NCBI RefSeq assembly: GCF_001998865.1
Contig: NZ_CP019607.1
Span: forward strand, 1,674,001 to 1,738,000
Source of the DNA: Tessaracoccus flavescens
GTDB taxonomy: Bacteria; Actinomycetota; Actinomycetes; Propionibacteriales; Propionibacteriaceae
Length of the DNA: 64,000 nt
Reading direction: 5' to 3'
The notes below the pieces were generated by a model. That model was given only the letters and a program-made list of their open reading frames with translations. It did no database searches and was not told where the DNA came from. Both the position numbers and the translations under genes were made by a program. Positions 5,625-42,519 of the stretch are shown here, one piece after another. How positions within the stretch are numbered: the stretch's first letter is position 1; each line of letters starts with the position of its first letter.

Positions 5625-5628
5625 GCTG

Positions 5629-21319: not shown

Positions 21320-21361
21320 GGCTGGCCGCCCAGTTGCGGCGAAGATTGTCGCGCGTGGTGA

Positions 21362-21740: not shown

Positions 21741-21744
21741 CACC

Positions 21745-24440: not shown

Positions 24441-24587
24441 GCCCGGCCAGCAGCCGAGATCTCAGTGAGTTCGCGGTTTTCGGTGCCCCGCTCACAGGAC
24501 TTAGTCACCGAGTGGTCGGCTTGCCCCAGGACGTGGCGTCGGAGTCCAGCCTGCTGCAACGGCACCGGCTGAGACCTCGTCTGATCC

Positions 24588-25658: not shown

Positions 25659-26269
25659 CAACGCCGATCCGGGTTCTCCTGGCCGAGGACGACGAACTGA
25701 TCCGGGTGGCCCTGGCGAGTCTCCTGGAACGCGAGCCGGACATTGCGGTGATCGGCTCCGTTCCAGACGGCAGACAAGCAGTCGAGCAAGCGCTACGGCA
25801 TCGGCCAGCGGTCGCGGTCGTCGACCTGCAGATGCCCAAGCTCGACGGCATCAGCGTGATCAAGGAGCTGCGCAGCACCCTGCCCGAGTGCGCCGGCGTG
25901 ATCCTCACCGGCCACGGACGCCCGTATCTGTTGCGCCAAGCGCTGCTGTCTGGCGCCCAAGGATTCCTCGCCAAGGGCGCGCCTGGCACCGCCCTTGCGG
26001 ACGTGATCCGCCGCGTCCACGAAGGACAACGCTACGTGGACCCAGTTCTCGCCGCAGACGCCCTCACCATCCAGCCGAGCCCACTCACCCCTCGCGAGAC
26101 CGAGGTGCTGTTAGCCGCGCAAGCGGATCGTCCGGTGCGCGATATAGCGCGCGGGTTGTTTCTCTCACCCGGCACGGTGCGCAACCACCTAGCGTCCATT
26201 GCCCAGAAACTCCATGCCGAGTCGAGAGCAGAAGCCCATCGAATCGCACGCGAGAACGGCTGGGTTTGA
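25655..26269 (+). CDS. Response regulator, NarL/FixJ (LuxR-HTH) family
   Basis: The 204-residue regulator has an N-terminal receiver domain: acidic pocket LLAEDDELIRVALASLL, phosphoacceptor Asp in VAVVDLQMPKLDGI, Thr in VILTGHG and Lys in GFLAKGAPG. The C-terminal LuxR helix-turn-helix is LTPRETEVLLAAQADRPVRD, followed by GTVRNHLASIAQKLHAESRA. Its ATG overlaps the kinase stop. It is the natural partner of the kinase and probably controls the upstream ABC operon. Confidence 0.93.
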   Translation: MTTPIRVLLAEDDELIRVALASLLEREPDIAVIGSVPDGRQAVEQALRHRPAVAVVDLQMPKLDGISVIKELRSTLPECAGVILTGHGRPYLLRQALLSGAQGFLAKGAPGTALADVIRRVHEGQRYVDPVLAADALTIQPSPLTPRETEVLLAAQADRPVRDIARGLFLSPGTVRNHLASIAQKLHAESRAEAHRIARENGWV

Positions 26270-26343
26270 CCGTGCGTGCCACCCAGGATCTTCGTGACAA
26301 ACCCACGGGATCACCAGGCGCTCGTCGCACCCAGACTGAGGCT

Positions 26344-26952
26344 ATGAACAACACCACACACCTCGACAGTCACCTCCACCAGCCCGCAGCCGGCCGGGTT
26401 GCACGGGGATTCCGACACGTGATCTCCCGCTGGCCGTCCGCGCTCGGCCTCCTGGCTCTGCTCGCCAACCTGGCCAGTGGAGCCGACCCCCACGTCACCG
26501 CCATGATCATCATCATCGCGGCCACCTGCTACCTCGGGGCGGCCGTCCTCGGCTCTCAGCGGAGCGTTTGGGTGATGGTAATCGTCGCCAGCGCCGCGGT
26601 TGTCCTCGCCAAACTCACCGGCCTGGACCCCACCGCCACACTGATCGTGATCGGCATCGGCCTGTCAGTCTTCGGGCTCATCAGCGCCGCCGGCACCCAC
26701 CGCCGTGCCATCGTCGTACAGACCGTGGGCTTCCTCGGTTACACCGCCATCGCTCTGGCAGCGATGATGTCCGGAACCACCTGGACCATTGGTCTGGCCG
26801 CGATCGCCGCGATCGGCCACACCGCCTGGGACGTGGCGCACTTCGTCCGCAACAAAGTGGTAAGCCGCTCACTCGCCGAAGCCTGCTTCGTCCTCGATCT
26901 CGGGCTCGCCGTTGCGCTACTGGTGTCCGCCTGGTCCGGCCTGCCCCACTGA
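26344..26952 (+). CDS. Multi-pass membrane protein, unknown function
   Basis: The 202-residue protein begins MNNTTHLDSHLHQPAAGRVA and has six or seven hydrophobic helices (SALGLLALLANLASG, VTAMIIIIAATCYLGAAVLG, VWVMVIVASAAVVLAKLTG, GFLGYTAIALAAMMSGTTW, FVLDLGLAVALLVSAWSG). A polar histidine-containing segment (IGHTAWDVAHFVRNKVV) lies near the end. It follows the response regulator by 74 bp in the same direction, and could be a target or accessory of that system. No named family is recognised. Confidence 0.7.
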   Translation: MNNTTHLDSHLHQPAAGRVARGFRHVISRWPSALGLLALLANLASGADPHVTAMIIIIAATCYLGAAVLGSQRSVWVMVIVASAAVVLAKLTGLDPTATLIVIGIGLSVFGLISAAGTHRRAIVVQTVGFLGYTAIALAAMMSGTTWTIGLAAIAAIGHTAWDVAHFVRNKVVSRSLAEACFVLDLGLAVALLVSAWSGLPH

Positions 26953-26967
26953 GCCGGAGGTACGCCA

Positions 26968-27720
26968 ATGAGCAACAGTCCCGATCCGATGCACTTCAAC
27001 GCAGTGGCGACTAGTTACGGCTCTGCCCGACCGCCCTACCCGGCTGCGCTGTGGAGAGATGTCCTAGCCACCGGCCTGGTCGAACCCGGACGACGGGCAC
27101 TTGATCTCGGAGCCGGTAGCGGAGAGGCGACCAGCGAACTCCTTGCCCGCGGAATGGACGTGCTCGCGGTCGAGCCTGGCGAGAAGCTGGCGGCAATCCT
27201 TCAAGAGAGGTTCCCCACGGCCACTGTGGTGCGCTCGCGCGCTGAAGACATCCAACCGGAGACCGCGTCCTTCGACCTCGCTGTCGCAGCCACCTCAATC
27301 CACTGGCTGGACCTTGATGTCGTGCTGCCGCTCGTTCACACAGCACTCACTCCCGAAGCCAGGTTCCTGGTCTGGCGCAATGTCTTCGGTGACCCCGACG
27401 CGGAAGTCAGCCCATTCCGACACGAGCTCCAGCGCATCGTCGACCGCCGAGGTGCCACCCGAGAAGGGAACCCAGAGGACGCCGATCACACCGCGACGAA
27501 GATCGCCAGGACGTCTCTCTTCACCGTTGAGCAGGTGCACCGCTACCGCTGGTCGATCGAGCTGACCGCCGACCAGGTCCACACTCTGTTTGCGACTTTC
27601 AGCGACTGGTCGGAGTCTGAGGTGAGACAAGCATCCTCAATCGTCGAAGCACTCGGTGGCACCGTGACCGAGCACTACAGCTCCTGGCTGATCAATGCGC
27701 GCCCAAGTCCGAAAGAATGA
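26968..27720 (+). CDS. Class I SAM-dependent methyltransferase
   Basis: This 250-residue protein has motif I in RRALDLGAGSGEATSELLAR, motif II acidic residue in VLAVEPGEKLAAILQERFP, and the post-motif segment DLAVAATSIHWLDLDVVLPL typical of UbiE/methyltransf_11 relatives. GGAGG lies 8 bp before the ATG. It overlaps the NUDIX gene by 4 bp (ATGA). The small-molecule substrate is unknown. Cluster context (NUDIX hydrolase, CYTH-like protein) suggests detoxification or metabolite repair, which is inference. Confidence 0.88.
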   Translation: MSNSPDPMHFNAVATSYGSARPPYPAALWRDVLATGLVEPGRRALDLGAGSGEATSELLARGMDVLAVEPGEKLAAILQERFPTATVVRSRAEDIQPETASFDLAVAATSIHWLDLDVVLPLVHTALTPEARFLVWRNVFGDPDAEVSPFRHELQRIVDRRGATREGNPEDADHTATKIARTSLFTVEQVHRYRWSIELTADQVHTLFATFSDWSESEVRQASSIVEALGGTVTEHYSSWLINARPSPKE

Positions 27721-28163
27721 GAGAGCACATGCATTTCACCGAGTACGACACACGTCTGGCAGCGTACGTGCTGCTCACGGATGAGCAGCGGCGAGTCTTG
27801 CTCACTTGGTTCCGGGGGGATGAACTTAATCCGCCCTGCTGGACGCTGCCCGGTGGGGGCATAGAGTTCGACGAACCGTTACGCGATGCTGCCATTCGAG
27901 AGACCTACGAGGAGACCGGTTACCACGTATCGGTGCAGCGGATACTCGCCGACTCCTACGAAACTGCGCCTGCCACAGCCGACACCAGGCCATTCCGAGC
28001 CCAGCGGTTCCTTTACGCCGGAACCATCATCGGCGGCAAGCTTGGCACCACCGAGACCGATGGTTCGACTGAGTTCGCATGCTGGATGCCGATTTCTGAG
28101 CTCCCTGCGCTGGAGTCACGCGGAACGATCGTCGACATGGCCATCAACGTGCTCTTGGGATGA
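27717..28163 (+). CDS. NUDIX hydrolase
   Basis: This 148-residue protein carries a complete Nudix box beginning GGGIEFDEPLRDAAIRETYE and ending in ETGYHV (G-x5-E-x7-REU-x2-EE-x-G pattern), within the usual beta-sandwich (RLAAYVLLTDEQRRVLLTWF). It would hydrolyse a nucleoside diphosphate linked to another moiety. The first ATG overlaps the methyltransferase stop; ATG at 27729 (MHFTEYDT), preceded by GAGAG, is equally possible. Substrate is not predictable. Confidence 0.9.
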   Translation: MREHMHFTEYDTRLAAYVLLTDEQRRVLLTWFRGDELNPPCWTLPGGGIEFDEPLRDAAIRETYEETGYHVSVQRILADSYETAPATADTRPFRAQRFLYAGTIIGGKLGTTETDGSTEFACWMPISELPALESRGTIVDMAINVLLG

Positions 28164-28223
28164 CAGTCCTCAGCGGGCGAGGCGGCATCAGGCGAGCAAA
28201 GGCGAGGTCATCCGGACCACCCA

Positions 28224-28706
28224 CTGAAGTACGCCTTAGTCGAACGAGAACGCCGCTACGTCCTACGGCCGGTTCCCGATGTGGTGACCAGTACGCAGGA
28301 CATCGTCGATCGATACGTCATCGGGACACGACTACGTCTCCGCGAAGTGCATGATGCGGATGGGACGGTCACCCAAAAGTTGAGCCACAAAGTCCGGTTG
28401 GACGCAGGCCCCCACGAGGTCGCGTGTACCAATCTGTACCTCAACAACCAGGAGTGGAACCTGCTCAGTTCGCTGCCTGCGCACACGCTCCGGAAGCGAC
28501 GACACATCGCCCGATTCGGTGGAGCAACAGTCGCAATCGACCAGCGCGAGGACGGCAGCCTCGTTGCGGAGATTGACGACGGTGAGCAGACGCCCGCTGG
28601 CATTCCAGACTGGCTGGACACGCTGCAGGACCTAAGCAAGGACGAGGCCTGGACCGGAGCAGGACTCGCATTGGCAAGAGGCGACGCGCAGCCCGCAGCA
28701 CGATGA
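28224..28706 (+). CDS. CYTH-domain-like protein (possible CTG start)
   Basis: The frame is open from the NUDIX stop at 28163 to 28706. The conserved start of a CYTH/thiamine-triphosphatase-like fold, KYALVERERRYVL (the ExExK-type motif as ERERR), begins right after a CTG at 28224. No ATG, GTG or TTG lies upstream in frame. The next usual start is GTG 28281, which would delete this motif. Later blocks DRYVIGTRLRLREV, HKVRLDAGPHEV and RKRRHIARFGGATVAIDQRE fit the tunnel-fold strands, and LVAEIDDGEQTP matches late CYTH strands. The product would be about 160 residues and bind triphosphate or long acyl chains. The non-canonical start is an inference. Confidence 0.65.
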   Translation: MKYALVERERRYVLRPVPDVVTSTQDIVDRYVIGTRLRLREVHDADGTVTQKLSHKVRLDAGPHEVACTNLYLNNQEWNLLSSLPAHTLRKRRHIARFGGATVAIDQREDGSLVAEIDDGEQTPAGIPDWLDTLQDLSKDEAWTGAGLALARGDAQPAAR

Positions 28707-29000
28707 GCTCGGCGGGCGGTCCGCCCATGATGGCTACCTGACCACCCACCTTGGACGCGGATCGGACCATCCTCGTTGCGATGGCCCGCCTGGCCTGTGC
28801 CGTTGAGCGAAGCGCGCGGTACCGGCCCGGCGGTGGATGAGCCGGTGGTTGCCGCGATCCTGCTCAGCCAGGCGATCTGGCTCTGATGATCGATGGCCCG
28901 CAGTATCCCGTCGCCACTGCGCAGGCAAACCTGGTGTCTGCTCTCACCCCAGCGGTGACGCGATGGACGCCTCACTCCAGGACGCGACGGCAGAGTCAAG

Positions 29001-29921
29001 TCAGCTCAATGCCGCAGCATGGTTATCCAGATACGCTGCGAGACCAGGGCGACGAAGAATCAGGGCCAAGTTGATCATGACGATCCTTCTGGCAATGAAC
29101 AACTGACGGAGGCGTCCAGCGTCCAGATCCGGCCAAGCCGCGTGGCGTTGGTAGCCAGCCCGGAACAGCGCGGTGACCGTCTCGTCCAGCTTTCCCCGCG
29201 TGATGCCGTAGAGCGTGTTCGCAATGTCTTGCACCCGATGCCCCCACGCGAGGTCCTGACAGTCGATGACGGCAAGCCGACCATCCGTGAGCTGAAGGAC
29301 GTTTCTAGGCGTGAGGTCGAAGTGCAACACCCGCGGGATCTCGTGCGCGGTCGACCAGATCTCGCGTAGGCACGCCTGAGCTTCGCTGAACCTTCGCCGA
29401 AAGAGCGCACGGTGTGCCGATGGTGCGGTGGAAAGCAGGTCGGGGGCGGCAAAGAGGATCGGGCGGCTGGCATCGAGAACACCTGGCGCGCGAGTAGCGT
29501 TGGGTGACACAGCACTGTGCAGTTGCGCACTCAGTTCGCCAAGCAGTTCGACCTGACCCGGTGTGAGCGGCCACTGAAAGCCGGTGCCGTCCATCCACGT
29601 GAAAAGCACGGCCTGGCGCTCCGCTCCGCGCTCTTCGGTGACGACGGCGCTGCCATCCAATGTCCGGATCATCTGTGGAGCGGCGAGTCCGGCCTCCCGA
29701 ATCCGGTCTGTCCAGGCCTCCTCGGCCTGTGTCACATGTGGTTCATGGATGCGTTGTGGAGGGCCCACACGGAGCATGAACTCGCCCTGGTCGGCCAACA
29801 CTCGATAGATGGTGTTGAACGATGACGTGACGTAACTGACCACGGCGTTCGTGAGCGCATGTCTGGCGATGACGTTCGATAGGATGCGATCCGCCGACCG
29901 TTGCTTCTCGGGCCGTGTCAT
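29001..29921 (-). CDS. Aminoglycoside phosphotransferase (APH) family kinase
   Basis: The 306-residue protein has an APH/choline kinase fold: RVLADQGEFMLRVGPP (nucleotide-binding strands), the Brenner motif HFDLTPRNVL with catalytic Asp, and the metal-binding DCQDLAWGHRVQDIANTLYG. ATG at 29921 has only a weak upstream purine tract. The family phosphorylates antibiotics or small metabolites such as homoserine or choline. Nothing shows which applies here, so a resistance role should not be assumed. It is convergent with the CYTH gene; the 28707-29000 gap holds no gene. Confidence 0.87.
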   Translation of the reverse strand: MTRPEKQRSADRILSNVIARHALTNAVVSYVTSSFNTIYRVLADQGEFMLRVGPPQRIHEPHVTQAEEAWTDRIREAGLAAPQMIRTLDGSAVVTEERGAERQAVLFTWMDGTGFQWPLTPGQVELLGELSAQLHSAVSPNATRAPGVLDASRPILFAAPDLLSTAPSAHRALFRRRFSEAQACLREIWSTAHEIPRVLHFDLTPRNVLQLTDGRLAVIDCQDLAWGHRVQDIANTLYGITRGKLDETVTALFRAGYQRHAAWPDLDAGRLRQLFIARRIVMINLALILRRPGLAAYLDNHAAALS

Positions 29922-30107
29922 CTGCTGATTCTACTCTCGCGTCGTCTTGTGCCTTCAGACCGACCCTACGGCTCTGGCGCCCGATTGTGGCTGTGTCAGG
30001 CCGCTCGAGGGATGAAAGCCGGGGCATCTGCGCTCCTGGCCCGCTTGGTGACACGACCTGACGGCAGACTGGCCCCTACCTGACCGCACAGTTGAGGGAG
30101 CTTCATC

Positions 30108-30494
30108 ATGCTTTTCACCCGCACCGCCCATCCGGCATTCCTGGACGACACCGCCAACTTCCGGCCCACGGACAAGACCGAGATCTTCGAGAAGCTCGAT
30201 GACGGCTACTTCGTCGTTGCCCTCGAGTACGTCCTCGAGCAGGGGGAGTCGCAGTACCCCCTGGAAGACGTCCTGGACGAGTTCCGGTGCCACATCGAGG
30301 CCGAGGAGGTCGACAAGCCGGAGAACCCGGCAGGCCGGGTCGACCTGTTCGCGAACTCTCGGTTGGAGCGTCTCGCGGGCGCCGTCGAGAAGCTGGTCGG
30401 TCGGCGCGCCTACAACGTCGAGTCTAAGGATGAGGACGGCGACACCTTCGTGTCGTTCGTGATCGACGACTCGGTCTCGGAGGCGAAGCTCTGA
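30108..30494 (+). CDS. Small acidic protein, unknown function
   Basis: The 128-residue soluble protein starts MLFTRTAHPAFLDDTANFRP after GAGGGAG (6 bp spacing). It is strongly acidic (LEYVLEQGESQYPLEDVLDE; CHIEAEEVDKPENPAGRVDL) and ends KDEDGDTFVSFVIDDSVSEAKL-like. There is no signal peptide, membrane segment or known motif. Codon usage fits the host. It is monocistronic between divergent and convergent genes. Confidence 0.6.
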   Translation: MLFTRTAHPAFLDDTANFRPTDKTEIFEKLDDGYFVVALEYVLEQGESQYPLEDVLDEFRCHIEAEEVDKPENPAGRVDLFANSRLERLAGAVEKLVGRRAYNVESKDEDGDTFVSFVIDDSVSEAKL

Positions 30495-30605
30495 GCCGAA
30501 CCTCGGACCTTGAGGGGCTGCCCCTGACGACGGCATCGGCGCCAGGGGCGGCCAGGCCTCACGCTGCACCGGACCGCGCCTGAGACGAACCGGTCGGCAG
30601 TCCCC

Positions 30606-31610
30606 CTAGCTGACCTCAGCCAAGGCTGCGGCGAGTCCTGGAAAGGCCGGATCGTCGGCGAGGATGCGTTCCAAGTCCTTTCGTGCCATTGCTCGCTTCC
30701 CCTCTCGGCGGTAAGTCTCTGCGCGGTGGGCAAGCGTGTTGTGCTTGATCGCCTGGGCTTGGCTGCGCCTCGCGAGAGACTGCTTGAACGCCTCGCGAGC
30801 GGCGTCGAAGTAGCCCTGCTCTGTGAATGCGACGCCACGCTGCGCCAGAAGGAACGACGTGAAGTCATCTTCGTTTGTGACCCCATTGGTCAGCTCGATC
30901 ACCTCGGCGTGACGACCTGCTTCGTTGTAGAGCTCAGCCAGTGAAACCGCTGCTGGAAAGGTCGGATCCAATGACTCGATGGCTTCGATTGCGCCGGGGA
31001 GGTCGCCTTGAGCCTGCCGGAACTCAGCTAACGTGAGCCCGATCAGGTCTCGGTTCAGCGGCATCGTGACGTAGACCCCTGGAGCGATGCCAACTGTTCC
31101 GGTGCTTCTGCTCATATAGGTCTGCAGGAAGCGATCATCTTCAGGTCGGTAACCGGAGCGCCACACTTCCTCGAAGAGAGCGCCTGACTGTTCGGAGCCC
31201 GAGCCAGCGAACGCATCGAGGACCATGCAGGTGTGACGTGCTTCGGGGAACCGGCTCGCGATGCTCCCGAGCGAGCCGATGGCGCCGGTGGTGACTGCCC
31301 TGTAGAGCTCCTTCTCCCACTTTGGCGCCAGCATGCCCGGCTTGGCTGCCACGTGCGGGGGCTGGATGGGCGCGTCTGCACCCACCGATCTCGGTGCGCT
31401 GCTGGACCGTGGCGCACGTGAACCTCCACCGGACCTCTTCGAGTACGAGATTCCGGTCCCAGGGATTCCGACTGTCTGGGTCACTCCACCCTTAGAGTTG
31501 ATGGTGACTCGGTTGCCCTTTGATCCCACGGAAGCGCTGAGGCCCTTTGTGGTGACTGTCATGCGCACACCGGGCATGACTTTGAAAGATTTGCGTACAC
31601 GAAACCCCAT
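30606..31610 (-). CDS. DUF4236 domain protein with C-terminal TPR-like repeats
   Basis: The 334-residue protein begins MGFRVRKSFKVMPGVRMTVT and continues with GLSASVGSKGNRVTINSKGG and GIPGTGISYSKRSG, the classic DUF4236 domain. A Ser/Pro-rich linker follows. The C-terminal two thirds resemble tetratricopeptide repeats (GDLPGAIEAIESLDPTFPAA, AGRHAEVIELTNGVTNEDD, GYFDAAREAFKQSLARRSQA, GKRAMARKDLERILADDPAF). DUF4236 proteins are often phage- or island-associated with no defined role. TAGGTT lies 6 bp upstream of the ATG, suggesting a leaderless transcript. Confidence 0.85.
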   Translation of the reverse strand: MGFRVRKSFKVMPGVRMTVTTKGLSASVGSKGNRVTINSKGGVTQTVGIPGTGISYSKRSGGGSRAPRSSSAPRSVGADAPIQPPHVAAKPGMLAPKWEKELYRAVTTGAIGSLGSIASRFPEARHTCMVLDAFAGSGSEQSGALFEEVWRSGYRPEDDRFLQTYMSRSTGTVGIAPGVYVTMPLNRDLIGLTLAEFRQAQGDLPGAIEAIESLDPTFPAAVSLAELYNEAGRHAEVIELTNGVTNEDDFTSFLLAQRGVAFTEQGYFDAAREAFKQSLARRSQAQAIKHNTLAHRAETYRREGKRAMARKDLERILADDPAFPGLAAALAEVS

Positions 31611-31651
31611 GCCCCGAACCTAGCAGCCACCGTATGCCGCCGCAGCCGGAC

Positions 31652-31936
31652 CTAGCCTTCGCTCTGAACTGATCGGGCAGGTTCAGGGGTCAACGGCGAG
31701 GGCGCATCGTCGTCCTCCCAGGTGGCGGTCAGCGAGATGCCGGTCGAGTGGGCCAGTTCGAGGATGCTCGCCAGCAGGATCGTCGTCTGCCCGCACTCGA
31801 TGGCGCTGATCCTCGACTGAGTGACGCCGATCTCGTCGGCCAGTTCAGTCTGGGTCTTGCCGCGCGCGATGCGTGCCTGTTGGATGGCCAACCCGAAGTC
31901 GCCCGCTGCTCGCAGCAGTGGCGTCCTCGTGGTCAT
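31652..31936 (-). CDS. XRE-family (HipB-like) transcriptional regulator, orphan
   Basis: The 94-residue protein starts MTTRTPLLRAAGDFGLAIQQ. It has a HTH_3 domain (RGKTQTELADEIGVTQSRIS, then AIECGQTTILLASILELAHS) followed by ISLTATWEDDD, like HipB antitoxins. No hipA toxin gene is adjacent. The intergenic DNA on its 5' side is AT-rich for this genome and carries a 21-bp palindrome. It is transcribed away from the large coiled-coil gene at 32180, so it may repress both genes. Confidence 0.85.
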   Translation of the reverse strand: MTTRTPLLRAAGDFGLAIQQARIARGKTQTELADEIGVTQSRISAIECGQTTILLASILELAHSTGISLTATWEDDDAPSPLTPEPARSVQSEG

Positions 31937-31984
31937 GTCGTCACCTATCAGGATTTCAGGACATACCGCGATTATCAAGTTTTC

Positions 31985-32005
31985 CAGATATCAGCTGAGT
32001 ATCTG
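31985..32005. promoter_or_regulatory. Palindromic operator candidate
   Basis: CAGATA and TATCTG arms surround TCAGCTGAG, giving a near-perfect 21-bp palindrome in an AT-rich divergent promoter region. It lies 49 bp before the XRE start, the expected location for its own operator. Confidence 0.55.
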
Positions 32006-32179
32006 AATTTGTCGATATTGGTCGGGTCGGCGTTTCGTCGGCTCGGGAGTCTTCAAGTCGAGAAACTCAGCGGCCCGAGGGCCCACAATCGCCAAGGCCA
32101 CCGCCGGATGGGACGATCCCGGATGTCCATCCCGCCTACCCGTCATGGACTCCACGCGTTTTCCTGGTTTGTCCGACAG

Positions 32180-34234
32180 ATGTCGGCGGTCGTCTCTACG
32201 CTCGCCAATGTGAGGAAACCTGAAACTTTGGTGGATGAGCGGGCAGCGTCAAATGCGTTCCTGATGTCGCTAGCGGTCGAGCCCGACGGCCGTGACGTGA
32301 TCGACGAAGCTGTCGCTCAGGTCGCTTCCTGGCTGCGTCACCGACCCAAGGCGTGGGATCCGAGGTTCGATGGCAATGGGTTCCAGACGGACCGCGAGAA
32401 CAGCCGCGACTTGCTGACTCTTCACCACGAGTCGAAGACCGGCCGGGAGTTTCGGTTCCGCCTGACCGAGGAGACGCGGACGCAGGGAGTGTGGCGAACC
32501 CAGTTGACGGTTTCGGTTCCTCGTGCGGGAGACCCATGGCTGGCATTACAGGTGGCAAACAGTCACGGTCGGTGGGCGGCAGTGCCCCGGCTGGCGACCA
32601 ATCTACTGGACACGCTCCGGACGCGCGACGGGCTCTCTTCCGTAACGTCAAAGCCGCTGATAGTGAGCCCTGGCAATGCCGAGGACTTCTTGGAACGCCT
32701 GACGGACCCGGAACGCCGCGGTCTCTACTTCGTCGCGGGATCTGACAAGGCGGGCATCGACTTCCGCGCCTTCGCCGCACAGGTCGGTCGATGGGTGACC
32801 CAGGTCCGAGGCCTCGGCCAGATGGCCGTGCTGACGCCCGAGGCCACGGCCTACGTGGCGGAGGCGCTGGGCCCATCGCATTCGATCGCACCCTGGACGA
32901 TCCGCACCTTCCATGGCGACGTGGACCCGGCCGTCCGCTCTGACGGGTTCCGGCACAAGTGGCTGACAACAGATCGGCTTGTGCGCGAGCGGGACGACGT
33001 GATCCAGCAACTCCTCGGACGAATCGCCCGAAGGCATGCATCGCTGACTCCCCGGATCGAGGGGTATGCCGCTGTTGACCGGGTGCTCAGGCGGCTTGAG
33101 GACCAGACTCTGGTCGAGTCAATTACCAGCGTGCCCCTGGCGGATCCGGCGCATGTGAAGCCGCATCAGACGACGTCGACTGCGGACGCTGGGGCCGCCG
33201 GAGCGGAACCGATCGTCACTCCTGACACCGTCGAGTATCTACTCGAGCAGGCAGGGGCAACCTCGGTTCCGGAACCGCCCATCGATGTTCGTGACCGTTC
33301 CGACGAGGACAGCCGGGCCGTCGTTGATAGGGCTCCTGAGACGGACCCCACAGATCTGGCGCCACGGGAGCGTCAAGCGGCGCTCCAGGCCCAGCTCGCC
33401 CAGGCGCGAGCGGTTCTCGACGTTGTCAGAACCTCGCTCGGGCTGGACGACCTGACACCAGAGTCACTCACGGCTCTCGCCGCTAGGGCAGCACACGTCG
33501 ACGCCGTGCAGGCGAATGTGTCGGTCTTCCAATCCCAACTTGCAGAGCGCGATTCGCGGGAAAGTGAGCTCGAGGCGCGGGTCTCGGCGCTGCAGGCTGC
33601 GTACGACAACACGCAACTCGACGCACGAGTCGCGGGCGACGCAGCCTCGCAACTGCGCGACGAGAACGCCTACCTGAAGCGTCGCTTGGCAGAGCTGAAG
33701 GACTTTGAAGCTGCCTACGGCGCAATCCCCAATGAGGCATACACCGTTTATCCCGATAGCTTCGCGGATCTGCTGGAGCGTTGTGGAGAGTTCGAGCAGG
33801 CCGGGGTGCTCTTCACCGGCAACGAGAACGAAGTGCTGGTTCTTGATGAGCACGACACACTCGGGAACGCCGTGCATGCTGCGTGGGATGGCTATCTCGC
33901 GCTCGCGGACTACCTGCGCGCTCGGTCGAGCGGACTCTGCAGCACAGGCGTGCGCGAGTACTTCCGAGAGACTCCCAACGGCTACCGATCCATGCCCACT
34001 AACAAGTTCGGTGGCAAGGAGACCAAGGCCACCATGGAGCGCTGGGGCGATCTCCGCGAGTTTCCCGTCCCGATCGAGGCTGACGCATCTGGCCACGCAG
34101 TGATGGAGGCCCATTTCAAGCTCGCGCCAATCGGCATGGTGTCGCCCCGCATGTACTTCCTCGACTGCTATGCGACCACCGGCAAGGTGTACGTCGGGTA
34201 CATCGGAGCCCACCTCACGAACACGATGTCGTAG
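32180..34234 (+). CDS. Large coiled-coil protein of unknown function, candidate defence gene
   Basis: The frame is open far upstream, but the part before ~32120 overlaps the XRE gene and its promoter. I therefore take ATG 32180 (MSAVVSTLANVRKPETLVDE, ~684 residues; ATG 32123 is an alternative). The N-terminal ~300 residues form a folded domain (AVLTPEATAYVAEALG, WTIRTFHGDVDPAVRS). A disordered linker (~310-390) and a coiled coil (~395-500; REELEAR-type heptads such as LRDENAYLKRRLAELKDFEA) follow. The C-terminal domain contains KFGGKETKATMERWGDLREF and FKLAPIGMVSPRMYFLDCYA. I recognise no family name. The gene is divergent from a HipB-like repressor and next to GIY-YIG and Wadjet-like genes. 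Confidence 0.75.
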   Translation: MSAVVSTLANVRKPETLVDERAASNAFLMSLAVEPDGRDVIDEAVAQVASWLRHRPKAWDPRFDGNGFQTDRENSRDLLTLHHESKTGREFRFRLTEETRTQGVWRTQLTVSVPRAGDPWLALQVANSHGRWAAVPRLATNLLDTLRTRDGLSSVTSKPLIVSPGNAEDFLERLTDPERRGLYFVAGSDKAGIDFRAFAAQVGRWVTQVRGLGQMAVLTPEATAYVAEALGPSHSIAPWTIRTFHGDVDPAVRSDGFRHKWLTTDRLVRERDDVIQQLLGRIARRHASLTPRIEGYAAVDRVLRRLEDQTLVESITSVPLADPAHVKPHQTTSTADAGAAGAEPIVTPDTVEYLLEQAGATSVPEPPIDVRDRSDEDSRAVVDRAPETDPTDLAPRERQAALQAQLAQARAVLDVVRTSLGLDDLTPESLTALAARAAHVDAVQANVSVFQSQLAERDSRESELEARVSALQAAYDNTQLDARVAGDAASQLRDENAYLKRRLAELKDFEAAYGAIPNEAYTVYPDSFADLLERCGEFEQAGVLFTGNENEVLVLDEHDTLGNAVHAAWDGYLALADYLRARSSGLCSTGVREYFRETPNGYRSMPTNKFGGKETKATMERWGDLREFPVPIEADASGHAVMEAHFKLAPIGMVSPRMYFLDCYATTGKVYVGYIGAHLTNTMS

Positions 34235-34683
34235 GTGCTGGTCCAGGCCACGCCTAGCGATTCTGAGGCTCCCGTCGCGGGTTGGACAGGGTGCTTGCGA
34301 CTGACTGTCGCGATCCGTGAGACTCATTGACGTGGCCGAACTCTGCCTTGGCCTGATGAAGACCTCCTGCCAAGCTTCCGCTAGGTCCGATCAACTCAAG
34401 GCGGACAAGGTCAGAAGTCGAAAACAGTCTCTGGGTCGGCCATTGCTGCCCGGAGATTAGCTAGCCTCGATCCACCGATGGGGAGGCTTGCTGAGTTGGC
34501 GTCGTAACGCAGAAATGCCCCTCTGACCAGGAAGAATAGAGCTTGTCTAAGTTTAGGGCCGCTTGAACCGGCGACTGTTTGAGACGGTCGGGTGGCCTTG
34601 TCACGACGGTGCTGGACTTGCCTTCCAGTCCTGCGTGGCGGCAGCCAGCTTCAGGTGCGCATCCGCGAGCGCACGTCGCCGGG
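34235..34683. other. Intergenic region, no gene seen
   Basis: This 449-bp stretch between convergent genes has lower GC than the flanks and many stops in all frames. I see no tRNA, terminator or credible ORF. Confidence 0.4.
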
Positions 34684-35451
34684 TCACTTCACGGCATCGG
34701 GCTCCCCAAGGTCCACGTCGATGTTGAGGACGCGCGTGGACGGCGTCGTCTGAGCAATGAGGACCGCCGCGCTCTCGGCCAAGCAGCGGGCAGACTTCAG
34801 GCGCAGGTCAGTGTCCTCGCCGCCGTGCATAGTTACGTGAGGGGCAATCGCGAACTCAATGGAGGCGCCGGTTTGTAGGTGCTTGACGATCTCCTTGTGG
34901 ATCCGGCGGCTGGTGCGTTGACGGCTCTGGTCTGTCTTTGCGTTGCGGTAGTTGCTCGCACGACGGGCTAGGTTGACTGACTCGCCGATGTAGAGGGTGT
35001 GCACGCCGTCATCGTCGCGTCCAAAATCGAAGCGGTAGAGGCCGGGCACGCGCGGCAGCCGCGGGAACTTGGGTAGCCCCTCGGCATCCAGAGTGATCGG
35101 GCCAGCTTTCAGCCACTGGAAGGTGACCTGTACGTCAACGTACTCCAAGACTTGGAGCGCAGCGGGGTCGACCCTCGCCCTACCACTGCCACTCCTCGGA
35201 CTCGCGGAGGTCAAGGCCTTACCCTGGCCGACGGAGAAGCCGAGGCGTTCGAGCAGGCGGCGGCTGCTCTGGGACTGGAAGCGACGTCGCTCGAGCCCGG
35301 TCGCGATTGCCATGACCTGCTTCACCGGCCAACGGACGCCGTCGACTTCAACCCAGTGCTCCTGGATCGATTCGGGTACGTGGCCAGCCAGCTTGCGACG
35401 GACGATGTCGGCGGTGAACTCGAAAGACCGACCGGCCAAGGTGAACTGCAT
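34684..35451 (-). CDS. GIY-YIG nuclease-like domain protein
   Basis: About 255 residues from MQFTLAGRSFEFTADIVRRK (ATG 35451; GTG 35529 is an alternative that adds 26 residues). The N-terminal half contains EHWVEVDGVRWPVKQVMAIA, a small domain often fused to nucleases. The C-terminal half shows the GIY-YIG pattern: GLYRFDFGRDDDGVHTLYIG, ESVNLARRASNYRN, a helix with RTSRRIHKEIVKHL, and a late Glu in CLAESAAVLIAQ. Cleavage of DNA or RNA is therefore possible. It lies between the coiled-coil gene and the Wadjet-like operon. Confidence 0.7.
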   Translation of the reverse strand: MQFTLAGRSFEFTADIVRRKLAGHVPESIQEHWVEVDGVRWPVKQVMAIATGLERRRFQSQSSRRLLERLGFSVGQGKALTSASPRSGSGRARVDPAALQVLEYVDVQVTFQWLKAGPITLDAEGLPKFPRLPRVPGLYRFDFGRDDDGVHTLYIGESVNLARRASNYRNAKTDQSRQRTSRRIHKEIVKHLQTGASIEFAIAPHVTMHGGEDTDLRLKSARCLAESAAVLIAQTTPSTRVLNIDVDLGEPDAVK

Positions 35452-35586
35452 GCTCCACTTTACAACGGTGGCTCGTCCCTCGACCGCCCTTGGGCGTGCG
35501 CCGATTGGTAGCGGGTAGGCCAAGAGCACCTGCCGATGGAGTTCCAGTCCTCACCGGCCGAATCGCCCACCCAGCCCCTCCACGCC

Positions 35587-35600: not shown

Positions 35601-37079
35601 ATGTCCAACACGCGTGCGGAGGCCGCCTACCGGCGTTCAGTCGCGGCCTTCAGGAACCCGATGCTCGACCTGCTCCACGGTCGATACGCCCCCTTCGTCG
35701 TCGCCGCGCTCTCGGTCGTGTTCACCCCCGACCGACCGACCGTCGCCGTCTCCGACGCCCACGCCGAGATCGGCGAGACCATCGACCAGCTCCGCGCCGC
35801 CGGCTATGACGACGACGAGCGACGACTCCCCTCAGGTACCGCCCGCGAGATCTGCCGACACTGGGTCAAGGTCGGCTGGCTCGTCCCGCAGATCGAGGAC
35901 GACGTCGAGGTCTACCGGCTCTCCGCCCAGGCCGTCGGAGCGCTCGAGGTCGCTGGCCGCGCAGGCGGCGGCCGCACCCGCGTCACCAAGTCCCGCGTCC
36001 GCACCCTGCTCGAGTCCGTCGACCGGCTCAGCCTCGACGCCGACGACAACCCCGAGGTGCGCCTCGCCAAGCTCCGCAAGGAACGCGACGACCTCGACGC
36101 CGAGATCGCCCGCCTCGAGGGCGGCGGCCCCGTCGAACCGGCCGACGAGGAGCAGCTGCTCGAGGAGGCGGAGAACATCCTCCACCTCGCCCGCGAGCTG
36201 CCCGCCGACTTCTCCCGCGTCGCCGAGTCCATCAAGGCCATGCAGCGCGACGTCGTCACCGATCTGCGCCAGGACATCCGCCCCACCGGCGAGGTCCTGC
36301 GCGAGTACCTCCAACGCGGCCAGCACGTCATGCAGGCCACCCCCGAGGGCCGCGCGTTCGCGGGGGCGCTTCGCCTGATCGGCGAGCCCGAACACATCGA
36401 CCAACTCTCCAACCAGCTCGCCGCCCTCATGGCCAAGCCGTTCGCCCGACTCCTCGACGACGAACAGCGCGCCGACCTGCGCGCCATCAGCCGCCGCGTC
36501 GAGCTCGGCGTCGAAGAGGTCCTGGCCGCGCAGCGCCGGGCAAGCCACGTCATCACCGCCCAGGTCCGCACCCACGACCCCATCCGCGACCGCCAGGTCG
36601 ACGACCTCCTCCGCGACGTCATGGCCGGCCTCCAGACCTGGATGCAGACCTCCCGCCCCGGCGACCGCATCGACCCGCTGCGCAGCTTCCCCGTCGCCGA
36701 CGTCGGCCACCTCCGCCAGTCGCTCAGCGACATCCGCCCACCCGGCGCGCCCGACCCGCTGCGTGACGGCGAGGACGACGACGTCGACTTCCTCGACGCC
36801 GACGAGCGCTCCTGGGGCGGCCCCCACTACGTCGAGCTCGAGAAGTACGTCGCCACCCTCGGCGACGACTTCGACCTGGCAAGCGCCTTCGAGGGCGGGT
36901 CCCGCGAGGTCCGCCGTCCCGTCGACCTGCTGGGCCTGCTCGAGATCGCCCACCGCAACGGCATGACGGAGGGCGACGACGTCTCCATCGTCGAGGCCCT
37001 CCGCCCCGACGGCACGAGCCGCCGCTTCGCTTTCGGCGCCGTCACCGCCCGCACCACCAAGGAGCACCCGCATGACTGA
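35601..37079 (+). CDS. jetA: Wadjet defence protein JetA (DUF3375, MksF-like kleisin)
   Basis: The 492-residue protein matches DUF3375: an N-terminal winged-helix/kleisin region ([40 protein letters not shown]), an arginine-rich helical middle with a coiled coil ([18 protein letters not shown]), and [20 protein letters not shown] plus [20 protein letters not shown]. The C-terminus has a conserved region near [20 protein letters not shown]. In type I Wadjet, JetA bridges the SMC-like JetC dimer and JetB. It overlaps jetB by 8 bp, as in complete operons. Leaderless start at 35601. Confidence 0.9.
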
Positions 37080-37953
37080 CGAGGTCCAGACCGACGCCGT
37101 GGCCGACGAGGTCACCGGCTTCATCGCGCCCGTCGCCATGGAGAACGACCCCGGCGAACTCTTCGCAGGCGACCGCGGCGTCCTCGACCACGACATCCGC
37201 CGCGTCCTCGTCCGCCTCCTCCAGCGCCGCTTCGTGCTCAAGGACCGCAGCCGCGACGACTGGAAGGTCCTGCTCGACAACCAGCAGGTCATCGAGTCGC
37301 GCCTCAACGACCTGTTCGTCCGCCTCGAGATCGACCACGACCGCGGCGTCGCCTACAAGTCGCAGGTCCGATCCGACGAGATGGAGGTCCCCATCCTCCT
37401 GCGCGACGACGCCTACAGCCGCGCCGAGACCCTCGTCCTCGTGCACCTGCGCACCGTCTACCAGCGCGAATCCAGCGCGGGGGAGCAGTCGGCCCGCGTC
37501 GACGTCGAGGAGGTCGAGCAGACGGTGCTCACCTACTTCGCCGAATCCGACGGCAACACCGCCCGCCGCCAGAAGGCCATCCGCGGCGCCCTGCAGCGAC
37601 TGCGCAACGAGGGCGTCATCGAGGAGGAATCCGAGGGCCGCTACCGGATCAGCTCCCTGGTCGAGATCGTGCTCAGCTCCGAGCGACTCCGCGAGCTCGC
37701 CGCCTGGCTCCGCGACACCGCCGAGACCCGCAACCGTCCCGTCGACGAGTCCCCCACCGACGCCGTCGACGACGAAGACTCCGAGGACGAGGATGACGAG
37801 CTCGGCCAGGTCGACGAGTCCGAGTTCGACGCCGGCGACCCCCTCGCCGAGCGCCCCGAGACGGATGACGAAGCCGAGGACGAGGCCGACGACGGCCCCG
37901 ACCCCCGCACCCAGCCGCAGCTGGGCGACGACGAGGAAGGAGACACGCTGTGA
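37072..37953 (+). CDS. jetB: Wadjet defence protein JetB (DUF4194, MksE-like)
   Basis: The 293-residue protein contains tandem winged-helix DUF4194 features: [60 protein letters not shown] and [20 protein letters not shown]. After about residue 225 it has a long, extremely acidic tail ([20 protein letters not shown] onward, ~60 residues) that is longer than needed for the fold. It is the MksE-like subunit that binds JetA. Its stop overlaps the jetC start by 4 bp. The acidic tail might mimic DNA or keep the complex off DNA; this is inference. Confidence 0.9.
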
Positions 37954-40900
37954 CCATGCTCGACACCCTCTTCGGGCTCATCCCCGCCGCCTCCCGCATG
38001 CAGCAGTGGGTCGCCGAGGACCTCCAACTGGTCAATTGGGGCGGCTACGACGGCTACCACCGCGTCCGCTTCGCCCCCACCGCCACCATGCTCTGTGGCG
38101 GCTCCGGCTCCGGCAAGTCCACCCTCATGGACGCCTACATCGCCCTGATGATGCCGCACACCACCCCGTTCAACGGCGCCTCCAACGGCGCGGTCACCGG
38201 CCGCCCCCGCGGCCAGGAGCAGCGCAACATCGTCTCCTACGGCCGCGGAAAGCTCGACGAGTCCCGCACCGACGAGGGCAGCACCAAGATGCGCGTCCTC
38301 CGCGGCGACGGCACCGACACCTGGACCGCCGTCGCCATGACCTGGGCCGACCACGACGGCGCCCGCTTCACCGCCGTGCGCGCCTGGTACATCCCGACGT
38401 CGGCTCGCATCCTCGACGACACCGTGCGGATCCGCGCCACCTTCGACGGCGACTTCGACCTGCGCCAGCTCCAGCAGGCCGCCACCCATCGGCTCAGCGA
38501 CTCCTCCGTCCGCGCCACCGGCCTCGAGACGGTCGGCACCGACCGCGAGTTCTCCGCAAAGCTCCACGCCGCGCTCGGCATCGGCGCCGCCGGCTCCGGC
38601 AACAAGGCGATGAGCCTGCTCGCCCGCATCCAGGCAGGCCAGCAGATCACCACCGTCGACGACCTCTACAAGAAGATGGTCCTCGAGGAGCCCGAGACGC
38701 TTGCCACTGCCGACGCTGTCGTCGCCCACTTCGACGGCCTCGACTCCACCCGCAACCGGATGCTGACGGCGCGCCAGCAGGTCCGCGCCCTCGAACCCAT
38801 CCGCGGCCTGAAGGCCAGGATCGTCGACGCCGCGGAACGCATGCGCCTGATCGGCGCCGTCGGCCACTTCAACGACCCCTCCTCCCTCGCCGCGCTCTGG
38901 CAGGCGAGCCGACGCCAGGACCTGCTTCACGACGTCGAGACCGAGCTGCGCGCCCGCAAGCTCGGCGCCGACCAGGCAGTCCGCGAGAAGCAGGAACTCG
39001 CCAAGGCTGCCGAGGCCGAGCGCGACGGCATGTCCGAGGTCCTGCGCACCTCCGGCGGTGACCAGCTCGACACCGCCCAGCGCGAGCTGCGCGACGTCGA
39101 ACGCCGCGCCACCGAGGTCGAACGCCAGCGCGAACGCCTCGACGCCGCCCTCGCGACGCTGGGCGTCGAGATCAAGAGCGGCAAGCAGTTCGCCGCCCTC
39201 GCCGACCGTGCCCGCCTCGCGCTCGCCGACGGCGACTCCAAGTCCGGCGCCCGCGACGCCTACGCCGAGGCCCGAGCCGCCCGCACCGCCGCCGAGCGTG
39301 AGGTCGCTGAGCTTGAGGCCGAACGCCGTCGCACCCAGACCCGCAGCGACAACATCCCCGCCGCCCTGCACGAGTCGCGCGAGCTACTCGCCAAGGCCGC
39401 GGGGCTCAGCACCGACGACCTGCCGTTCGTCGGCGAGCTGATCGAGGTGCGCACCGAGTTCGAGCCGTGGCGCGAGGCGTTCAACCTGGCGCTCGGCGGC
39501 TTCGCGACGACGCTGCTGATCGACTCCGACCGGCTGCCGCTGTTCCGCACCGCCATCAACTCCGTCCGCACCCCCGTCCGGCTCCGCTACGAGGGCGTCC
39601 CCGTCGGGCAGCCGCTGTCGCCGCCGCGCGACGACCGCACCCTCCCCGGCCGGCTCGACTACAAGCCGTCGCCGTTCACCGGCTGGCTGCAGGACCGCCT
39701 CGTCGACCGCTTCTCCTTCGTCTGCGTCACCGCCCCCGAGGAGCTCAAGCGCCACTCGACCGCGCTGACCATGAGCGGCCAGATGTCGCAGGGAAGCCGC
39801 GGCGCGCACGGCGGCCACGGTCGCTCGAACGTGCTCGGCTTTTCCAACCAGCGCCGCCTGCTCGACCTCGCCGCCCAGATCGACGACGCCCGCTGGCGCC
39901 TGGGCGACGCCATCGACGCGCTCGACGCGGCCGCGAATTCGCTCGACGCGATCGACGCGCGCAACGCCGCCTACGGGGTCGTCGCGGACCTGACCTGGGA
40001 CCAGGTCGACGTCGACGCACTCGAGGACGAGCGTCGCCGCTGGCACGGCGTCATCGAGGAGGTCACCACCGGGAACCCGACCATCGCCCGCATCCAGCAG
40101 CAGATCGCCAAGGCGCAGGAGAAGGTCACCGCGCTGCGGGAGGACATCGGTCGTGCCAAGCACGAACGCGACCGCCTCGCCGACAAGTGGGGCCAGGTGA
40201 TGGAGGAGGTCGACGCCGCAGACGAGACCCTCGAGGCCGCCGGCGACGCAGGGATCGAGCTGACCGAGGAGCAGGCCGCTTACCTCGACCGCCAGTTCGA
40301 CGTCCCCGACGGCGAACGTTCGACCTCCGCCTCCGACGAGCTGCGCCGCTTCGACGCGGCGCTGGAGAACGCCGCCCAGCGGCTGTCGGCCGACCAGCGC
40401 AACGCGCAGGAGACCCTGGGGGAGCAGCGCGAGACGCTGCGCCGCACCCTCGCCACGTTCCTCGACCGCTGGCCCAACCCGAACCTGCTCGCCGACCCGG
40501 ATGGCGGCGTCGAGGACTTCGAACGGATCCTCGAGGACCTCGAGACCAGCGGCCTGCACGAGCTGGAGGCCGAGTGGCGCGACTCGCTGCTCAACCTGTC
40601 GGGCAACGACCTGACCAACCTCGACTCGACGCTCGGCCGGTCGCTGCGCGAGATCCGGGAGCGGATCGAGCCGATCAACCTGATCATGCAGGACCTGCCC
40701 TTCTACGACGACGACCACCGGCTGCAGATCGCCACGCGCGAGAACCAGTCGGTCGTGAGGTCGCGGTTCCGCAAGGAACTGCGCGACGTGCGGGCCCTGA
40801 TCGAGGCGGCGTCGTCTGACGAGGAGCGCGAGGCGGCGTACACGCGGATGTCGAAGCTGATCGACCGGATCCGCCGCACCGCACCCGACTTCTCCGACCT

Positions 40901-41303
40901 GATCGACGTGCGCAACCACGTCCGGGTCAGCGCGGAGCGGGTCGACGCCGTCACGAAGAAGCACGTGGCGCTGTATGACCACATCGGCGAGAAGTCGGGC
41001 GGCGAGTCGCAGGAGCTGATCGCCTTCATCGTCGGCGCGGCCCTGCGCTACCAGCTGGGCGACGCGGGGTCGGAGCGCCCGCGTTACGCCCCGGTGTTCC
41101 TCGACGAGGCCCTGATCAAGGCCGACGCCCACTTCACCGCCCGCGCGATCGGCGCGTGGAGGGGGCTGGGCTTCCAGTTGATCATCGGCGCGCCGAACGA
41201 CAAGTACAGCGCGATCGAGCCGCACGTGGACGTGGAGTACGACATCTTGAAGGACACCCAGGGTCGGTCGTGGGCGAAGCCCAAGGTGGGTTTGGCGGGC
41301 TGA
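37950..41303 (+). CDS. jetC: Wadjet defence protein JetC (SMC/MukB-like ATPase)
   Basis: The 1117-residue protein begins with GTG at 37950. It has Walker A near residue 45-52 in [20 protein letters not shown], two long coiled-coil arms ([40 protein letters not shown]) and a hinge-like middle (~480-620). The C-terminal head has the signature [19 protein letters not shown] and Walker [12 protein letters not shown]. This is the motor that recognises and loops small circular DNA in type I Wadjet. In complete systems the next gene is jetD, a Toprim nuclease. Here 41304-41552 is non-coding and no DUF3322/DUF2220 protein follows. Confidence 0.92.
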
Positions 41304-41552
41304 GGTGGGCGCCCAGGTGAGGTTCCGAGTTCACGAATCACGATAGAGGCATCCTTCTTCGCCGGGTCCCTGCATGCGTCACCTCCACCGGCACGGTGGC
41401 TCTGCACAGCCCAGCAGCTGCTAGTCGCGTACTTTTGGTTACCGACTTGTCCTAAACAGGTTGACAACGTCCAAGATCCGCGAGAATCCGAGAAGCAGCA
41501 CGCGCTCCGGAAGACCTGAGCGGGCAATCGCGACAGTAAGGTAAGGGGGCTG

Positions 41553-41875
41553 ATGCCAACGATCGAGGGCCAGGTACGCGCCGCCAGCGAGGCCATCGAG
41601 AGGAACATCTCGATGATCACGGCCGACCGCGGGTTCTTGTCGAAGAACGTGCTGCAGTACCTCCGCGACCTTGTTGAAGCGATGATCGTTTGGGCGCACA
41701 CCGGCGATCCGACGCAGCGCTTCACATATAAGACCCAGTTCGACCTGGCGCGAGACTTCGCGAAGGCGGCAGGCTAAGTATCGGCCACTGACGCGCTTTA
41801 ACGCGATGCTGCAGGTCAGCGTGTCGCACTTCACGCTCGACGAGGATCCTTCTGAGCGACTCATGCTGAAGTAGG
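41553..41875 (+). pseudogene. Decayed N-terminal fragment of a large uncharacterised protein
   Basis: From the ATG at 41553 the frame reads MPTIEGQVRAASEAIERNIS, MITADRGFLSKNVLQYLRDL and FTYKTQFDLARDFAKAAG, then stops at 41777. In the next frame it continues without a gap as YRPLTRFNAMLQVSVSHFTL and DEDPSERLMLK, stopping near 41875. The two halves look like one continuous N-terminal domain with a 1-bp frameshift followed by truncation. I recall similar N-termini on large island-borne proteins but cannot name the family. A GTAAGG-rich stretch precedes the start. Confidence 0.55.
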
Positions 41876-41876
41876 G

Positions 41877-41990
41877 ACCCGCCGTGACCCGCAGCGTCGA
41901 GTTCCGCGACGAGCTGCCCACCACCCTCGTCGGCAAGATCGCCTACACCCAGCTCGAACAGGAGGAGACGGCGCAGCCGGCCGGGGCGTG
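41877..41990 (+). pseudogene. C-terminal fragment of a long-chain fatty acid-CoA ligase
   Basis: The frame reads VTRSVEFRDELPTTLVGKIA then YTQLEQEE and ends at the TGA at 41988. The pattern R-x-VEFRDELP-T-x-VGK-x-x-x-x-x-L is the canonical C-terminus of AMP-forming acyl-CoA synthetases, including the catalytic lysine region. No other part of the gene is present. It marks a junction where accessory DNA to the left meets host chromosome. Confidence 0.75.
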
Positions 41991-42003
41991 ACACGATGGC
42001 GGC

Positions 42004-42519
42004 ATGTCGATCACCATCGTCTCCGGGCTGCCGGGCTCCGGAAAGAGCACCGTCGCGAGGGCGCTCGCCGAGCGTCGGGACCGCGGCGTCCACCTCGACA
42101 CCGACGACGTCGGCGAGCGGTTCGTCGTGTCGGGCGCCGTCCTGCCCGGACAGGACCCGGGAGACGAGGCCGAGGCCCAGTTGGCCCTGCGGAGGCTGAA
42201 CCTGGCCGACCTGGCGCGCAACTTCGCCGACGCCGGCTTCGACGTCGCGATCTCCGACGTCGTGCTGTGGCCCGCGCTGTGGGAGGAGTACGTGCGGCGG
42301 CTCGGGCCGTCGCTGCTGCTGGTGATCCTGACCCCGAGCCTCGAGGCCATCGCCGAGCGCGACGCGGGTCGCGCCAAACAGGTCGCCGCGCACTGGACCC
42401 ACCTCAAGGCCGACCTCGACGCCTGGACCGAAGCCCCCGGTCTCCGCCTCGACACCACCGGCCAGAGGGTCGACGACACCGTCGCGGCGGTCGAAGGGTG
42501 GCTGTCGAGCGGGCGCTGA
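42004..42519 (+). CDS. Small P-loop kinase/ATPase (AAA_33-like)
   Basis: The 171-residue protein has Walker A in IVSGLPGSGKSTVARALAER, an acidic pair in VHLDTDDVGERFVV, a helical lid and the strand LLLVILTPSLEAIAERDAGR. It resembles gluconate-/chloramphenicol phosphotransferase-like small kinases that phosphorylate a small molecule or nucleoside. It starts 13 bp after the acyl-CoA ligase fragment stop. No Shine-Dalgarno is obvious. Substrate unknown. Confidence 0.75.
   Translation: MSITIVSGLPGSGKSTVARALAERRDRGVHLDTDDVGERFVVSGAVLPGQDPGDEAEAQLALRRLNLADLARNFADAGFDVAISDVVLWPALWEEYVRRLGPSLLLVILTPSLEAIAERDAGRAKQVAAHWTHLKADLDAWTEAPGLRLDTTGQRVDDTVAAVEGWLSSGR

Follow-up and report, generated by a model that had tools for sequence, protein, structure and literature searches.

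When an operon built to destroy plasmids lacks the gene for its nuclease, is it a broken copy, or does it do something else? The question is raised by a 64,000-nucleotide stretch of the actinobacterium Tessaracoccus flavescens (contig NZ_CP019607.1, positions 1,674,001 to 1,738,000; hereafter the window), which carries jetA, jetB and jetC of a Wadjet type I system and, at their 3′ side, no jetD. JetD is described as the executing nuclease of known Wadjet systems (PMC10123090, PMC10586767). The operon belongs to a Wadjet type I lineage, widespread among actinobacteria, in which JetD has been lost repeatedly while JetABC has been kept, a lineage whose gene content, recurrent JetD absence, intact ATPase motifs and purifying selection are established directly. 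With a probability of roughly 0.6, our analysis favours the reading that these proteins form a stand-alone, MksBEF-like DNA-looping motor of the structural maintenance of chromosomes (SMC) type, descended from Wadjet type I.

The identity of the operon is clear from several independent sources. An earlier note, made from the sequence alone, had called jetA, jetB and jetC intact, overlapping and in canonical type I order, and open frames, Pfam and PADLOC models agree: all three are intact plus-strand genes, and every neighbouring pair overlaps (Table 1). JetA matches DUF3375 (PF11855, 374.6 bits), JetB matches DUF4194 (PF13835, 141.3 bits) and MksE (PF21980, 35.7 bits, cut-off 27), and JetC matches SbcC_Walker_B, AAA_29 and, just above the cut-off of 23, the MukB N-terminal family (23.2 bits). 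The best PADLOC models are those of type I (JetA1, 718.7 bits; JetB1, 358.1; JetC1, 1682), far stronger for JetB and JetC than the MksE and MukB family matches, and the top PDB matches of the three proteins are chains named JetA, JetB and JetC. The operon therefore combines a JetA with DUF3375, a JetB with DUF4194 and a JetC with Walker A, C-loop and Walker B, as in Wadjet type I, with the absence of a JetD Toprim nuclease by both the JetD_C profile and a full-length clade profile, the N-terminal Pfam family not having been searched separately; a three-gene kleisin-KITE-SMC operon without a nuclease is also the arrangement of MksBEF. The stop codon of jetC lies at 41303, and 41552, which the earlier note gave as the end, coincides with no detected feature. 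Promoter- and terminator-like sites between 35300 and 42100 number 0 and 2, not above chance.

Table 1. Features of the operon and of its 3′ side (window coordinates)
Feature	Position	Strand	Length	Basis
jetA, kleisin, DUF3375	35601..37079	+	492 aa	open frame, Pfam, PADLOC and PDB matches
jetB, KITE, DUF4194 / MksE-like	37072..37953	+	293 aa	open frame, Pfam, PADLOC and PDB matches
jetC, SMC ATPase, GTG start	37950..41303	+	1117 aa	open frame, Pfam, PADLOC and PDB matches
JetB N-terminal linear motif, residues 17-26	37120..37149	+		alignment of clade JetB rows
JetC Walker A, residues 50-58	38097..38123	+		alignment of JetC rows
JetC signature (C-loop) KSGGESQEL, residues 1015-1023	40992..41018	+		alignment of JetC rows
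JetC Walker B region, residues 1047-1059	41088..41126	+		alignment of JetC rows
Expected place of jetD, JetD sequence not found; one short open frame, 41553-41774	41304..42003	.		six-frame reading, profile search, tblastn

That no JetD follows jetC, as the earlier note had stated, is borne out by three approaches. A six-frame reading of 41280-42030 contains neither JetD nor a remnant of it in any frame; a profile search through all frames of 25001-56000 gives no match at E 0.01; and tblastn queried with the nearest available JetDs detects no remnant in 41304-42003, where the best E value is 0.94. The short open frame in this region has 74 codons and a protein-like start, its open piece has no Pfam match, and another frame nearby continues protein-like sequence, so that it is perhaps a broken gene. 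Across the whole genome (3.65 Mb, 2 contigs), the Pfam JetD_C profile and a profile of related JetDs find the same single JetD, about 0.6 Mb away inside a second, distantly related and complete JetABCD operon (G000:C1:2321958-2328773, equivalent to L082:6959-13774; G, C and L numbers are our handles for genomes, contigs and loci). This operon directly follows a Cpn60 chaperonin gene, and its JetC is 29% identical to that of the window. The suggestion that JetD is encoded elsewhere is thus literally true of the genome, but the gene in question belongs to a separate complete operon.

Absence of JetD extends well beyond this species. The closest relative, Tessaracoccus bendigoensis (L002), has a JetC that is 83% identical, the same downstream oxidoreductase gene and no JetD. 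Among the nearest JetC relatives, of which the best 80 of 177 were fetched, an intact JetD is adjacent in 8 (L068, L071, L072, L073, L075, L076, L079, L080) and a JetD pseudogene in 1 (L016), and no adjacent JetD was found in the other 71, including six loci that end less than 1 kb after jetC (L005, L015, L029, L042, L055, L067). At the level of whole genomes, covered for 78 of the 80, there is no JetD_C match in 61 (27/38 and 34/40). A truncation peculiar to T. flavescens, one of the explanations proposed earlier, does not survive this comparison, since L002 shares the absence and, a few groups apart, the sampled clade generally shows it too.

The best-sampled genus, that of G354 with 247 genomes, is inferred to be Microbacterium from contig matches to named Microbacterium records, because G778:C177 and L005 have identical match coordinates (3842-7180) and the L016 pseudogene is also present in G873. 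Its 105 near-full-length JetC places, tallied after 11 fragment rows from 7 genomes had been left out, were divided into the window clade (at least 54% identity), an intermediate class (35-38%) and a canonical class (at most 30%), and JetD was scored as adjacent when a JetD_C match lay within 2.5 kb on the 3′ side. By this measure, JetD_C is adjacent in 2 of 77 window-clade places (G775, intact; G873, pseudogene), 2 of 10 intermediate places and, in the same search, all 18 canonical ones; 67 of the 77 window-clade genomes lack any JetD_C match. Contig ends lie close to at least 4 of the 77 rows (G719, G778, G837, G887), none of them with a JetD_C match elsewhere, and a profile built from the JetDs of the clade and its kin returns the same adjacent cases. 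Counted by near-full-length JetC, the operon is present in 77/247 genomes, about a third. In the window's family (147 genomes), JetD is adjacent in 1/7 window-clade (the window included), 3/5 intermediate and 22/25 canonical cases. In the genus of G306, which has the family code of G354 and is represented by 60 genomes, JetD_C is adjacent at 9/9 JetC places, three of them window-clade and one of these three, G640, with JetD in two frames. The JetC of G557, from the same genus as the window, is identical to that of T. rhinocerotis. A search for jetC on plasmids gave no match among 72,556 records at E 1e-100.

Because a JetD in the canonical place occurs in scattered members of the clade (G449, with a 74% identical JetC; G306; G623; G640, in two frames; G775), JetD is most simply regarded as ancestral there and as lost several times. 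The scattered members with JetD in this place also include 8 loci of Actinomadura, Actinoplanes, Actinophytocola and Nocardia, and JetD-bearing members are scattered among JetD-less ones in a JetC tree of 114 sequences. On this tree, unordered parsimony requires 9-10 changes and irreversible loss requires 21, counts that are approximate, the FastTree topology having weak deep nodes; the 21 include L029, whose JetD state is uncertain, and one loss in the intermediate group, and the L016 pseudogene is counted as not yet lost. Gains look less likely, given that window-clade JetD always sits directly after jetC in the data examined and that in-clade JetDs are 53-62% identical to the JetD of G775 (Actinomadura group, 45-50%). 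According to the earlier note, its proposal would fall if relatives had jetD at the same locus and an assembly gap or deletion had removed it here: jetD does adjoin jetC in the 74% relative, and an ancestral loss therefore did happen, but nothing here indicates an assembly gap.

One locus appears to have caught the loss part-way. The jetD of Microbacterium helvum (L016) still encodes residues 1-245 and, in a different frame, 326-396; the residues lost between them, 246-325, are the site of the invariant acids E255, D299, D301 and D303, presumed to be the Toprim catalytic acids, and jetA, jetB and jetC all remain open beside the pseudogene. The reverse pattern of decay was observed too, G718 having a JetC split in two next to an open JetD, and G726 a truncated JetC together with an N-terminal piece of JetD.

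The three genes that remain are maintained. JetC rows without JetD keep GKST in 94/94 covering rows, SGGE in 95/95 and the Walker B DE in 95/95, and JetC is a single open frame in 121/121 fetched loci, a sample drawn by JetC match in which broken copies may be under-represented. Pairwise ratios of non-synonymous to synonymous substitution (dN/dS; Nei-Gojobori, only pairs with dS 0.1-1.2) have medians of 0.055 for JetA, 0.143 for JetB and 0.075 for JetC in 11 JetD-less pairs, mostly of named Microbacterium. For 44 flanking genes from 9 of the 11 pairs the median is 0.095; constraint on JetA and JetC is thus no weaker than on their neighbours, and both are under purifying selection. Canonical JetD-bearing pairs, not all independent, give 0.076 for JetA (n=4), 0.082 for JetB (n=6) and 0.164 for JetC (n=5, four pairs from the inferred Microbacterium, which share sequences, and one from the window's family).

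Conservation also extends to a short element in JetB. The clade motif F-I-x-P-V-x-M-E-x-D has F, M and E identical in 77/77 JetD-less and 10/10 JetD-bearing rows and D kept in 76/77 JetD-less rows, and the mean majority share is 0.34 for residues 1-16 versus 0.82 for 17-26. A VFDD-like motif occupies this region in several canonical JetBs, and an IFDR motif at the N-terminus of JetB is described as contacting JetD (PMC10586767), to which the clade motif may be equivalent. A signature of a lost JetD interface was sought in JetABC as a whole and is weak or absent: the columns that separate JetD-bearing from JetD-less proteins number 6 in JetA, 2 in JetB and 5 in JetC, at the edge of random expectation (reached by 19, 43 and 21 of 500 random draws).

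How, then, might such an operon work? By homology with its relatives, the JetA-JetB-JetC complex would still dimerise and bind DNA and would extrude DNA loops using ATP; without JetD the final cut would not be made, and the motor would work alone. A useful role without DNA cutting is probable, because the operon has been kept intact and under selection despite repeated loss of JetD, and the MksBEF-like working envisaged earlier is a possibility that we judge to be right as such. Patchy presence (77/247), together with a JetC tree at odds with bacterial family boundaries, suggests an accessory, transferable unit; Microbacteriaceae as one JetC clade are rejected by the approximately unbiased (AU) test (p-AU 4e-37; 29 of 114 rows), for which the clades were chosen with the first tree already in view. 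We lean towards an accessory role on extrachromosomal DNA over core chromosome folding, and the target may be either the chromosome, or plasmids that are compacted and silenced. A bolder proposal, which we hold tentatively and consider doubtful, is that JetABC without a nuclease is a distinct mobile anti-plasmid or plasmid-management system, in which small circular DNA would be reeled in by loop extrusion and silenced or sequestered uncut, or passed to an unlinked effector docked at JetD's site on the JetB motif. If so, loss of JetD would represent a repeated, selected switch from plasmid destruction to plasmid control.

Several observations weigh against a stand-alone motor, or against generalising it. 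The nuclease-bearing MksBEFG of Corynebacterium glutamicum is described as acting on plasmids and not in chromosome folding (PMC7083940), so that homology does not justify assuming a chromosomal role. The AU test does not reject a single JetC clade for Corynebacterium (p 0.37; 29 of 114 rows). Survival of the JetB motif without JetD means that it either serves JetABC itself or is a place where something else docks, and so few separating columns are odd if loss of JetD had set its interface free to drift. Constraint on JetB is weaker in pairs without JetD than in canonical ones (0.143 vs 0.082), and the pair formed by the window and L002 is less constrained throughout (JetA 0.24, JetB 0.30, JetC 0.18), a relaxation that cautions against over-generalising the selection result to T. 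flavescens. Finally, JetC is broken in G718 (C22), G726 (C1) and G858 (C1) and has a stop in G712 (C1), and the JetB of L009 is in two frames.

Among the alternatives, those that would leave the complex with a nuclease fare poorly, with one partial exception. An assembly gap or sequencing artefact hiding jetD is practically negligible as an explanation: nothing was found in its favour, the window contains no N, and L002, with the same downstream oxidoreductase gene, is likewise without JetD. It is scarcely more probable that the adjacent GIY-YIG protein replaces JetD, as the earlier note had offered. Its gene adjoins the operon in divergent orientation, and residues 155-217 give weak, below-cut-off matches to NCBIfam PRK07883 models (and no Pfam match) over a stretch that we take to be the GIY-YIG part of those models; set against this, the gene lies on the opposite strand, its third-position GC is 0.79 as opposed to 0.93-0.95 for jetABC, and tblastn at E 1e-4 over the window and 158 other loci, many with only a 1.5 kb flank, matches nothing but the protein itself. 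Sharing of the JetD of the second Wadjet operon by both complexes is improbable; that complete operon does exist in the genome, but its JetC is only 29% identical, and 67/77 genomes of the inferred Microbacterium and 61/78 of the nearest relatives are without any JetD_C match. The exception is an unlinked nuclease or other effector that docks at JetD's site, for instance on the JetB N-terminal motif, and lets JetABC still kill plasmids. We consider it unlikely, yet it draws on the near-invariance of that motif in JetD-less rows behind poorly conserved residues, on the few columns that separate JetD-bearing from JetD-less JetABC, and on the patchy, not family-bound distribution of the three-gene unit; against it, no linked gene recurs, the motif could serve JetABC itself, and no candidate was identified, a genome-wide co-occurrence search not having been made.

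The remaining alternative is that the operon is the decaying remnant of a defence system that has lost its effector and is heading to full loss. Broken members (G718, G726, G858, G712), the JetD pseudogene of L016 and the less constrained window pair speak for it; the unbroken JetC in every locus fetched by JetC match, the low dN/dS and the depth of the JetD-less subclades, which have common flanking genes, speak against it, and we regard such terminal decay as improbable, about as much so as a shared JetD. A kept, nuclease-free SMC motor is the reading that we favour.

Compared with known systems, the window operon resembles Wadjet type I (JetABCD, also MksBEFG or EptABCD) in its DUF3375 JetA, DUF4194 JetB, JetC, canonical order and overlaps, and differs in being without JetD. 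By description it is like the MksBEF of Pseudomonas aeruginosa, a nuclease-free kleisin-KITE-SMC operon said to contribute to chromosome organisation (PMC10586767); unlike that system, the window clade has JetD-bearing and JetD-less close JetABC relatives side by side. The MksBEFG of C. glutamicum is likewise actinobacterial but has MksG (JetD). PADLOC's Wadjet definition, as given in its description, requires all four genes, so that an operon of the window type would not be called Wadjet, and its 'Wadjet other' comprises operons in which only part of the jet gene set is present (PMC9252829); the partial gene set fits, whereas 'Wadjet other' is a catch-all of a search tool and no described lineage or function. 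Loss of JetD itself has already been proposed as the origin of MksBEF in Pseudomonas (PMC10586767), and the new part is the JetD-less actinobacterial clade, for which no describing paper was recognised in a search of the open-access literature (subscription journals and preprints outside its scope). This clade displays JetD loss several times at short distances, with JetD-bearing, JetD-decaying and JetD-less members, and adding JetD, or exchanging it among close relatives, would thereby put the question to a direct test.

The surroundings of the operon vary. For JetD-less loci among the 80 nearest relatives, 134 neighbouring genes were listed on the 3′ side and 126 on the 5′ side, and PADLOC and Pfam scans covered 75 and 68 of these, for the most part those closest to the operon. 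No gene recurs at the jetD site, no Pfam family among those listed (the first 25 of 72 and the first 25 of 66) occurring in more than five members and no PADLOC family in more than three, and a linked replacement for JetD was dropped as a candidate for want of a recurring family among the scanned neighbours. The neighbourhood changes from subclade to subclade, with many metabolic or cell-envelope genes in it; nuclease-like 3′ neighbours are isolated (PIN in L002, HNH in 2/75, DUF222 in 5/75). For the window's AAA protein and 1079-residue protein, the 158 other loci, many with short flanks, likewise contain no homologue. Third-position GC of jetABC is that of most genes at 42-60 kb, in contrast to 0.70-0.84 for genes at 20-35.5 kb, the GIY-YIG gene included (one exception, 0.91); jetABC therefore groups with the core genes, and the GIY-YIG gene belongs to a stretch of another composition. 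This stretch, 20405-35529, is probably an island, and it holds an APH-family phosphotransferase gene (29004-29921), a DUF4236/TPR protein, an HTH regulator and the GIY-YIG gene.

Some related loci merit a separate record. The intermediate JetC group is itself mostly without adjacent JetD, in 8/10 cases in the inferred Microbacterium (G714, G892, G709, G920, G731, G849, G869, G735) and 2/5 in the window's family, and JetA, JetB and JetC are all present in the seven intermediate loci fetched (L171-L177). Three canonical JetC genes of the window's family have no adjacent JetD_C (G509, G455 and G494:C1:506988-510311), and the genomes G509 and G455 lack a JetD_C match altogether. JetC matches of 25-26% occur in another actinobacterial genus (L089 and L091-L093, from G363, G423, G076 and G399; loci with a 1.5 kb flank), three of these four genomes being without a JetD_C match and the fourth having one on another contig only. 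In T. bendigoensis, jetABC lies between an HEC-01B-like defence gene (L002:4113-4685) and the PIN-domain gene (L002:10519-11180), whose small neighbour looks, by eye, like an antitoxin. In Microbacterium indicum (L078, 10359-14509), genes for SbcD and SbcC, an SMC-like nuclease pair, start 14 bases after a JetD-less jetC on the same strand and so stand in JetD's place, the sole such case among the loci examined.

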